This document shows positions 1 through 3,284 of a stretch of DNA of 64,000 bases, one piece after another (position 1 is the first letter of the stretch; each line of letters begins with the position of its first letter). This stretch comes from Parietichytrium sp. I65-24A. Lineage: Eukaryota > Sar > Bigyra > Thraustochytrida > Thraustochytriidae. Below the pieces are notes generated by a model. That model searched no databases and was not told the origin of the DNA. It saw only the letters and a program-made list of their open reading frames with translations. The stretch is taken from positions 553,279 to 617,278 of the forward strand of contig BLSF01000019.1 of assembly GCA_012862575.1 (NCBI GenBank). The letters run 5' to 3'. Position numbers and translations under genes: made by a program.

Positions 1-1
1 A

Positions 2-1893
2 AGCAGGAAGGACTGGCAGTACTTTTCGTTCTACAAGTACGCCGGATTGGAGCAGCCGTGGGCGTTGAGGAGCGCATTGGAGCGAGAATGGCAAGCGATG
101 GGAGTGCTAGGGAGAGTGTATGTGGCAAGTGAGGGCGTTAATGGGCAGGTGGCGGTTCCATCGGGGAAAGAGGAGGAGTTCAAAAGGAGCATTTTGAACA
201 AAGGAGGCTTGGACAATTGCTTCATCAATGTGGGCGAATCCATCTCGCAAGATGAGCAGTTCCCGTTTCGCAAGCTCAGAGTCAAGCTGAGGTCGAGGAT
301 CGTTAACGACGGCCTGGACGAGCCGCTAAAGCTCGTAGATCGCGGAGAAGAGACGAGCCCCGAGGAGTGGCACGAACTGGTGAGGAACAAGTCGGAGGAC
401 ACGGTGATCTTGGACTGCCGCAATTCTTACGAGCATGAGATCGGGCGCTTTGATGGGTCGGAGCGCGTCATGGTTGACGTGTTTCGAAACACATTCGAGA
501 AGTTGGACGAGAGGTTTGCAGGAGATCTCTCTGCAGAGAACACCAACGTCATGATTTATTGCACGGGAGGAATTCGCTGCGAGAAGGTTGGCGCGTACTT
601 GAAGGAGAAACTAAACGTCAAAACCGTGAAGAGACTGGAGGGAGGAATCGTCAAGTACTTAGAGTACATCAAAGCAAACGAAGGCTTGACGTCCACGTTC
701 AAGGGGAAGAATTTTGTGTTCGATGATCGATCCTTCTTGAACGGCGCCGTCAAGGCGACAGATGACGTGCTCGGAAAGTGCATATATTGCGGGACACCCC
801 ATGACGATCACTCCAAGTGCAAAAATATCATGTGCGGAAGAACACAGCTTCAATGCCCTGCATGCGCCGCAAGGATGAACCACACCTGCAGCCCTGCCTG
901 TAAAGAAGCCGTGGAGCTTTTCCAGGGGATGAATACAGAAGAGCAGCGGGCTTACAGAAAAGCAAACGTTAGCCGTTTCAAGCCCGAGCTGCAGACGCTA
1001 CAAAATCGATACGGCATCTTGGCCGGCCCAATGCCTCCCGGCCCAAATTCACGAGCGAGGGGGTTACACACGTTTCCGCCGCATCACAACGGGGAGCCGT
1101 CTTTTTCAGAGCTGGAGGCGTACTGTGAGACGGTGTCAAGCGTATTGACGTCGGAAAGTCGAGAATCTGCACTTGCAGAAATCCGACGAGCAACAGAGGC
1201 TCGACTTGCCCGTCCCCATATGCTCGCATCAGTGCAGCAGGGGCGATTATTGCGTAAGTAAGAGGGCTTGAGGTGGCGACGTCCCTTTCTTGTGTGCAAA
1301 AAGAGCTCAGGAGTTTCATGTACGCAGGCATTATGCAGGCACATTTTGATTATCTTGATGGTGAATGCCCACTGAATTGAGATATCTGTTTTCACTCCTG
1401 GTCAGGTTTTCTTGTACAGATTGTGCGCGCTAAAAAGTGTTTGGAGCTCGGGACATTTAGCGGTTATTCTTCTCTGTGTATCCTTGACGGCCTTCCGCAA
1501 GACGGCGAGCTCATCACATGTGACATCGACGAATCTGCGCTCGAAATCGCTCGCCCGATTCTCTCTGCGGATCCCCGCGTGAGCGTACGCTCCGAACGTG
1601 GAATGGATGTCATCCGCAGCTTGGGAGAGCCAATGGATCTGATCTACGTGGATGCAAATAAAGTTGGTTATTGGGAGTATTACGAGGAAATAATTAACAA
1701 TGGCTTGCTCAATCGGAATGGCGTCATGGTGTTTGACAATACACTTTTCAAAGGCGCTGTAATCTCTCCAAAAAAGCCCCAAAGAATAGCCCGAGCGATG
1801 GACAGGTTTAACCAAAAAGTGGCGGAAGACTCCAGAACTCGCCAGTTGTGCCTTCCGCTTTGGGATGGTGTGACGTGCGTCACTTTGGTCTAG
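2..1893 (+). CDS. TrhO-type rhodanese fused to a TrmR-like O-methyltransferase (5' end outside window)
   Basis: The frame is open from base 2, so the N-terminus lies off the left edge. Exons 2-1253 and 1406-1893 flank a 152-nt intron (donor GTAAGTAAG, acceptor GGTCAG); splicing is in phase and removes the stop at 1259. About 579 residues are visible. The first part is a TrhO/UPF0176 protein: an early EGVNGQVA segment, a rhodanese loop CTGGIRCEK with the probable active Cys near visible residue 187, then a Cys cluster (CIYCGTPHD, CKNIMC, CPAC, CSPAC). The second part is a class I SAM methyltransferase of the CCoAOMT/TrmR type: LELGTFSGYSS, DLIYVDANK, DNTLFKGAV and a DGVTCVTLV end. The splice joins LLR to FLVQIV and completes the usual run into the SAM loop. 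Family knowledge: TrhO hydroxylates U34 of tRNA, and TrmR methylates ho5U to mo5U. The substrate of this methyltransferase is inferred. Confidence 0.85.
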
Positions 1894-1921: not shown

Positions 1922-3058
1922 CTAGTCTACTTCTGAATGGATAATTTCGGGGGCCGCCGATAGGTTCCGGCCGTCCGGTGACCCAGGGTGGATACGCAGT
2001 TCTTGACTGTCCAGTGCGCTGCGGGCTGTAGGCTCAGCCAAAGAAAGCTCGGCCGGAGCGATCTTCAGCTTGTCCGAGGAGAATCTCAGCGCCCGCGACG
2101 ATCCTTTGTCTTTCGCACGCATAGAAAGGGCCAAAGCTGTGAGTACGAATCGCTCAAACTGAAATAGGAAAAAGGCGAGGGTGACTCCGCTGTCAAAGTC
2201 GTTGAAAATGGTCTCGCTAGCGAGGGCTGCAATTTGGAGCACCATGACAAAGAGAAGAACGAACATTGAGGTCACGAAGAACACCCGAGCTTTAAGTAAT
2301 ACGCGCTCAGCGAGTACCTTCACGTGCGACTCGTCTGTCGAATTTCGCATGAGCTCTTTGTACCAGCGAATGGATGGCAGCATCACCACACTGGCTTCCC
2401 AAAAATATATAAAGCTGACGCCGGCGACTCCGAGCATGCAGATGCGTATGGTCTCGTGTACACTGTCCTCAGAAACTGAAAATACCACCGTGAAAGAATT
2501 AAACGCCAACAATTTAATCCCAGCAAGGAACCTGAAGGTTTCGCTGCTTAATAACACCTTCTTTCCACTGGTTCTCCGGAACCTGATGTCATGCTCCCAT
2601 AACTCCACAAATCGGAGCATGTACAGTGATAAGGTGATCATTTCCCCAGCACAATAATTTGCCATCAGTGTCGATACGAGCAAATTCTTTCCGAACCTCC
2701 ACTTCAAAGGGTCGGTGACTTTGAGTGAGCAGCTGATCACCAAAAGACCCTGAGACGCAATGTAGGTGTAGCGATTTTTGTTTTTGGTATTGGCCCAATC
2801 ACCAAGCAGATTCCCATCTCGCCAGGACATCACCAGCAGCAGCATTGGTGGGACAATGTTTATGAGACTCGTTGCGAGCAGCACTCTGTTAACAGCGCGA
2901 AAATAATCTTCCCCATAGTCGCATTCTCCAGTGCAGTTGAAGCAGAAGAATGTGGTCTCCCATCCGTCCTGGCACTCGCAAGATATTGAGTCCGCCGTGA
3001 AGTTATCTACGCATTGCTGATTCACACTGCAGGCCAATGCCACTGCGCAGGATGGCAT
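1922..3058 (-). CDS. EGF-like, multi-pass membrane protein of unknown function
   Basis: 378 residues from the ATG at 3058. The frame stays open to 3160 but has no other ATG. Residues 4-32 form an EGF-like Cys pattern (SC, AC, QQC, SC, EC) ending in CQDGWE, followed by three more Cys (FCFNCTGEC). About six or seven hydrophobic segments follow, for example VLLATSLINIVPPMLLLVM, YIASQGLLVISCSL, a FLAGIKLLAFNSF segment, CMLGVAGVSFIYFW and VFFVTSMFVLLFVMVL. The tail after about residue 320 is polar. The order suggests a receptor-like protein with an extracellular EGF module. No signal peptide is visible, so either an upstream exon is missing from this model or the N-terminus is exported by the first membrane segment. 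I do not recognise a named family. Confidence 0.7.
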   Translation of the reverse strand: MPSCAVALACSVNQQCVDNFTADSISCECQDGWETTFFCFNCTGECDYGEDYFRAVNRVLLATSLINIVPPMLLLVMSWRDGNLLGDWANTKNKNRYTYIASQGLLVISCSLKVTDPLKWRFGKNLLVSTLMANYCAGEMITLSLYMLRFVELWEHDIRFRRTSGKKVLLSSETFRFLAGIKLLAFNSFTVVFSVSEDSVHETIRICMLGVAGVSFIYFWEASVVMLPSIRWYKELMRNSTDESHVKVLAERVLLKARVFFVTSMFVLLFVMVLQIAALASETIFNDFDSGVTLAFFLFQFERFVLTALALSMRAKDKGSSRALRFSSDKLKIAPAELSLAEPTARSALDSQELRIHPGSPDGRNLSAAPEIIHSEVD

Positions 3059-3284
3059 GGCGCCGCAGCTTGTCGCCCTTCGAACGGCCCTTGCCTTGCT
3101 GCTCGCTTTGGCCTGCGCGCGTTTCGCCAACCAGTCAGCTTGTCTGGAGCGAAACGAGAACTACAAGTTCCCTGAACTGTTGAGGGAGGCTGCCTTGGTC
3201 AAGTATGGACTGCGAAACCGCTATCTCTCCTTCTGCGAGCCAGCAAACGAGTCGTCAGGGACAGACAACGACACCAACTCCTAG
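3057..3284 (+). CDS. possible short secreted protein, 75 aa (weak)
   Basis: The frame starts with a convincing signal-peptide pattern (MAPQLVALRTALALLLALAC, then ARFANQ) followed by a polar stretch with two Cys and N-glycosylation-type sequons (NQS, NES). Its ATG shares the tetranucleotide CATG with the ATG of the membrane protein on the other strand, so the two starts overlap head to head. The hydrophobic stretch lies opposite a low-complexity Ala/Lys/Arg frame, so it may be chance. No family is recognised. Confidence 0.2.
   Translation: MAPQLVALRTALALLLALACARFANQSACLERNENYKFPELLREAALVKYGLRNRYLSFCEPANESSGTDNDTNS

Follow-up and report, generated by a model that had tools for sequence, protein, structure and literature searches.

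In the thraustochytrid Parietichytrium sp. I65-24A, one gene almost certainly encodes a fusion of a TrhO-type tRNA hydroxylase and an O-methyltransferase, and we consider it probable (about 0.7) that the product is a two-step wobble-uridine enzyme that synthesizes mo5U34 sequentially; substrate, product, order of the steps and location are inferred. The TrhO half would use O2 to convert U34 to ho5U34, which the C-terminal metal- and SAM-dependent O-methyltransferase would then convert to mo5U34. The fusion is probably sent to the mitochondrion by its short basic leader; there, single U34 tRNAs would read whole NYN codon boxes. The architecture is a known one in a new lineage.

The gene opens a stretch of 64,000 nucleotides (the window; contig BLSF01000019.1, positions 553,279 to 617,278 of the forward strand). 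The open frames at 2-1261 and 1423-1893, on which the original prediction was built, were confirmed in the sequence. As seen in 5 kb of additional upstream sequence, the frame extends over L007:4909-6261 with an ATG 53 nt upstream of window base 1 (L007:4948), and the window thus opens within the gene. Joining 1253 to 1406 as a GT..AG intron (donor C followed by GTAAGTAAG, acceptor CCTGGTCAG followed by G) preserves the frame and gives one protein of 597 residues, which begins MLRARKSSLCLVRQLCTG. Ten donor/acceptor pairs were tried and the frame was kept in four of them. With the 1253/1406 pair the homologues fit without gaps across the junction, and the spliced sequence PHMLASVQQGRLLR/FLVQIVRAKKCLELGTFSGYS gave an ungapped alignment with nearly all relatives; the other pairs lose the frame, or add or drop residues. 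The canonical in-phase splice proposed earlier is therefore retained. Its position relative to the domains is not as proposed: the intron does not separate the two enzymes, because the splice falls in codon 436, inside the Methyltransf_3 match (residues 402-594, E 1.2e-40), and it does not restore the beginning of the methyltransferase, whose N-terminus is already encoded in exon 1. As exon 1 alone carries TrhO, the linker and the first ~35 methyltransferase residues in a single open frame, the fusion is independent of the splice. The features are collected in Table 1; all four Pfam domain matches exceed the cut-off and, together with the spliced frame, they bear out the claim that one polypeptide joins a TrhO-type hydroxylase to a CCoAOMT-type methyltransferase.

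Table 1. Features of the TrhO-methyltransferase gene, in window coordinates.
Feature	Position	Strand	Content or evidence
Exon 1	1..1253	+	End of the mitochondrion-like leader, TrhO domains, linker, methyltransferase N-terminus; continuous open frame
UPF0176_N (acylphosphatase-like), aa 23-118	14..301	+	Pfam PF17773 E 1.8e-19
Rhodanese, aa 144-238	377..661	+	Pfam PF00581 E 6.7e-10
CTGGIRC catalytic loop	560..580	+	Sequence; mutant data in PMC6599085
Rhodanese_C (cysteine-rich), aa 252-319	701..904	+	Pfam PF12368 E 1.2e-17
Methyltransf_3 start in exon 1, aa 402-436	1151..1253	+	Pfam PF01596 match from aa 402
Intron, 152 nt, GT-AG, phase 1, within methyltransferase domain	1254..1405	+	Frame kept, ungapped alignment
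Exon 2, remaining methyltransferase (SAM motif ELGTFSGYS, metal site), stop TAG 1891-1893	1406..1893	+	
DANK, with the first Asp of the metal site and a conserved Lys (= TrmR D133, K136)	1651..1662	+	Alignment
DN, remaining metal-binding pair (= TrmR D159, N160)	1735..1740	+	Alignment

Bacterial contamination as the source of the gene is rejected on account of the intron and the 617-kb contig in a 42.5-Mb genome (172 contigs). Upstream, on the same strand, lies a putative ABCG-type half transporter gene (L007:1080-4202; read by eye from the translation). Downstream, on the minus strand and convergent, a 402-codon frame at window 1922-3130 encodes an EGF-like stretch rich in cysteine, along with several segments that look transmembrane.

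The TrhO identity of the N-terminal half, also part of the original prediction, was upheld by the complete UPF0176_N, rhodanese and Rhodanese_C architecture and by the NCBIfam TrhO equivalog NF001133 (196.7 bits against a cut-off of 170). This half is 28% identical to the solved TrhO 9j5o. In E. coli TrhO the C, T, second G and R of the CXGGXR-type loop are essential, according to Sakai et al. (PMC6599085), and the CTGGIRC loop of the fusion keeps all four. We predict O2-dependent ho5U34 formation by this half. The genome contains four further TrhO paralogues, about 26-40% identical to each other, which makes five TrhO genes in all. One of them is a second fusion, a single 1124-residue open frame at L013:2908-6279 (G000:C15) that adds an RNA pseudouridine synthase domain (PF00849, E 2.5e-24) after the TrhO domains; in the other three (L012, L014 and L015) no fused enzyme was detected in the same frame. 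Since no peptidase U32 (TrhP) was found in the genome, the TrhO-type proteins are its only recognised source of ho5U34.

The methyltransferase half had been called TrmR-like, which holds for the fold and the probable chemistry and fails for descent. It has the Methyltransf_3 fold, and in the alignment the D, D and N of the metal site and the adjoining Lys are all kept. Its match was the only one to Methyltransf_3 in an exon-by-exon search of the genome, which a split gene could escape. The top PDB matches were SynOMT 3cbg (107 bits), 3tr6, 3r3h, human COMTD1 2avd and 5lhm, whereas the TrmR structures ranked much lower (8k1f, 55 bits; 5zw3, 46 bits). By identity the nearest relatives were Myxococcota enzymes (40%). 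The B. subtilis TrmR and alfalfa CCoAOMT sequences used were identical to PDB 5zw3 and 1sui. In a tree of 39 proteins the TrmR members formed a clade, with the fusion methyltransferase on the far side of a 100/98 branch, and forcing the fusion to group with TrmR was rejected (p-AU 0.005). Grouping with SynOMT, COMTD1 and CCoAOMT was neither recovered nor rejected (p 0.425), the branch of the fusion being long (1.81). By the PDB ranking and the tree, this half stands on the SynOMT/COMTD1/CCoAOMT-like side and is no orthologue of TrmR; because it lies outside the TrmR clade, its substrate is not readable by orthology.

No TrhO gene adjoined the nearest bacterial methyltransferase relatives within the flanks examined. 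A relative of the fusion methyltransferase in Bacteroides finegoldii (L036:1438-2421) lies between pyk and the ribosome-maturation gene rbfA and is possibly an RNA methyltransferase.

A second nuclear gene of the genome points to related chemistry. A search for enzymes that might compete for ho5U turned up a CmoA-CmoB fusion of about 651 residues, counted from the likely ATG, encoded on the minus strand at L053:3936-6065 (G000:C25:205935-208064). Its CmoB part scored 323 bits against a cut-off of 275, and its CmoA part 192 bits, just below 193.3. From translations read by eye, we take the flanking genes to be a SCYL-type kinase-like gene and a karyopherin-like gene; as these look eukaryotic, contamination is unlikely. 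In E. coli CmoB, Lys91, Tyr200 and Arg315 contact Cx-SAM (PMC4482062), and the equivalents of all three are conserved in the fusion. A nuclear CmoA-CmoB fusion in a eukaryote suggests cmo5U chemistry, which we predict although the eukaryotic cytosol is said not to use cmo5U (PMC8879553). No published eukaryotic CmoA-CmoB fusion was found in a small literature search. If this enzyme is active, the organism could turn a shared ho5U precursor into both cmo5U and mo5U, possibly with each in its own compartment.

The mitochondrial contig, C141 (G000:C141; L043-L046), has 39.3 kb at 28% GC, of which 5123 bases read N. It encodes one tRNA each for Val-UAC, Ser-UGA (Ser-UCN), Pro-UGG, Ala-UGC and Leu-UAG (Leu-CUN). 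No G34 partner tRNAs for these boxes were found on C141, and every codon of each of these four-codon boxes is used in the mitochondrial frames. For NYN boxes of this kind bacteria use xo5U34. Leu(CAA) and Leu(UAG) were found on the contig, and tRNA-Thr and tRNA-Leu(UAA) were not. Translated under code 4, the long conserved frames lack TTA or have it mainly at their ends, and TTG is frequent, one frame of 509 codons having 39 TTG and 0 TTA. In the thraustochytrid mitochondrial code (NCBI table 23) TTA is a stop. C141 fits a code of this type, because TTA is avoided and no tRNA-Leu(UAA) was found, in keeping with a thraustochytrid, and hence stramenopile, host.

Several other explanations were weighed against consecutive action in the mitochondrion. 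Two separate adjoining genes could be imagined, as intron retention would place a stop (1259-1261) just past the donor site; but unspliced exon 1 would then end in a truncated methyltransferase N-terminus and exon 2 would begin in the middle of a domain, and the ungapped homology given by the splice, with the content of exon 1, makes this very unlikely. The methyltransferase might instead act on a small catechol-like molecule or on another RNA product, so that the fusion would not be a consecutive-step enzyme. Its place on the SynOMT/COMTD1/CCoAOMT side and not with TrmR speaks for this, as does the occurrence of TrhO matches in only 2 of the 16 prokaryote genomes (many of them partial MAGs) that carry the nearest methyltransferase relatives, which argues that those relatives mostly do something else. 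We still regard such a substrate as improbable, since ho5U bears exactly the type of ring hydroxyl that such chemistry methylates, the insertion loop of plant CCoAOMT is missing from the fusion, whose loop in the alignment has roughly the short length seen in TrmR, and distantly related stramenopiles are reported to have the fusion too (PMC6599085). Consecutive action is favoured by the fusion itself together with the complete catalytic loop, the conserved metal site and the lack of a detectable TrhP, by the same architecture in other stramenopiles (PMC6599085), and, as regards ho5U chemistry, by the CmoB homologue in the same genome, whose bacterial substrate is ho5U34.

The compartment is a separate matter, and we lean towards the mitochondrion. 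Of 20 leader residues, 5 are R/K and none is D/E, a composition typical of mitochondrial import, and the leader extends ahead of the conserved TrhO start; its amphipathicity does not stand out, with a helical moment as high in 28% of shuffles. From the leader and the tRNA set it is reasonable to expect mo5U in mitochondrial tRNAs, although unmodified U34 reads four-codon boxes in mitochondria elsewhere (PMC8879553). A bifunctional enzyme that modifies cytosolic tRNAs, or those of both compartments, would agree with the weak leader evidence and with the four other TrhO paralogues, which mean that TrhO chemistry need not stay in one compartment. The basic leader without acidic residues and a mitochondrial tRNA set that fits mitochondrial use make this rather unlikely, if a little less so than a different methyltransferase substrate.

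The original prediction took the fusion to be undescribed, and this claim falls. Sakai et al. (2019) had reported yceA(trhO)-trmR fusions in Phytophthora sojae, P. ramorum and Phaeodactylum tricornutum, and their paper, which calls these organisms bacterial by mistake, used the fusions to single out TrhO, as one clue to its function (PMC6599085). The lineage, the leader and the evidence for non-TrmR descent of the methyltransferase half may be new. No relatives of the whole fusion were found in viral contigs.

According to PMC10516636, ho5U derivatives are a specific feature of bacterial tRNA, though Sakai et al. predicted from the distribution of TrhO that they occur in eukaryotes (PMC6599085). 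That prediction can be put directly to the test in a protist with a fused hydroxylase-methyltransferase. If this methyltransferase does not descend from TrmR, the label 'TrmR' is misleading for such fusions and methylation of ho5U arose more than once. Taken together, a mitochondrion-targeted mo5U34 synthase whose methyltransferase was recruited outside the TrmR branch, so that ho5U methylation would have had a second origin, beside a nuclear CmoA-CmoB enzyme for cmo5U, is a tentative picture that we put at somewhat less than even odds. If true, the xo5U wobble pathway, chemically known only from bacteria so far, would be complete in a eukaryote.

Compared with known systems, the protein resembles bacterial TrhO (YceA; PDB 9j5o, 4f67) in all three domains and the CTGGIRC loop, but bacterial TrhO is without the leader and the C-terminal methyltransferase. 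TrmR/YrrM (PDB 5zw3, 8k1f) shares with it the fold family, the metal residues and the short loop before DxxK, whereas in place of TrmR's VPI motif region the fusion has the PHMLASVQQG type, as in other OMTs. SynOMT (3cbg), COMTD1 (2avd) and Myxococcota-type OMTs have the highest similarity, up to 40% identity, but they stand alone, with no TrhO nearby, and their substrates are small molecules or unknown. The Phytophthora and Phaeodactylum fusions are the closest in architecture: like the present gene, which has both domains, they combine TrhO and a methyltransferase, there called trmR, in one gene of a stramenopile. The thraustochytrid fusion belongs to a different stramenopile lineage, and the likeness is drawn from the published description (PMC6599085).
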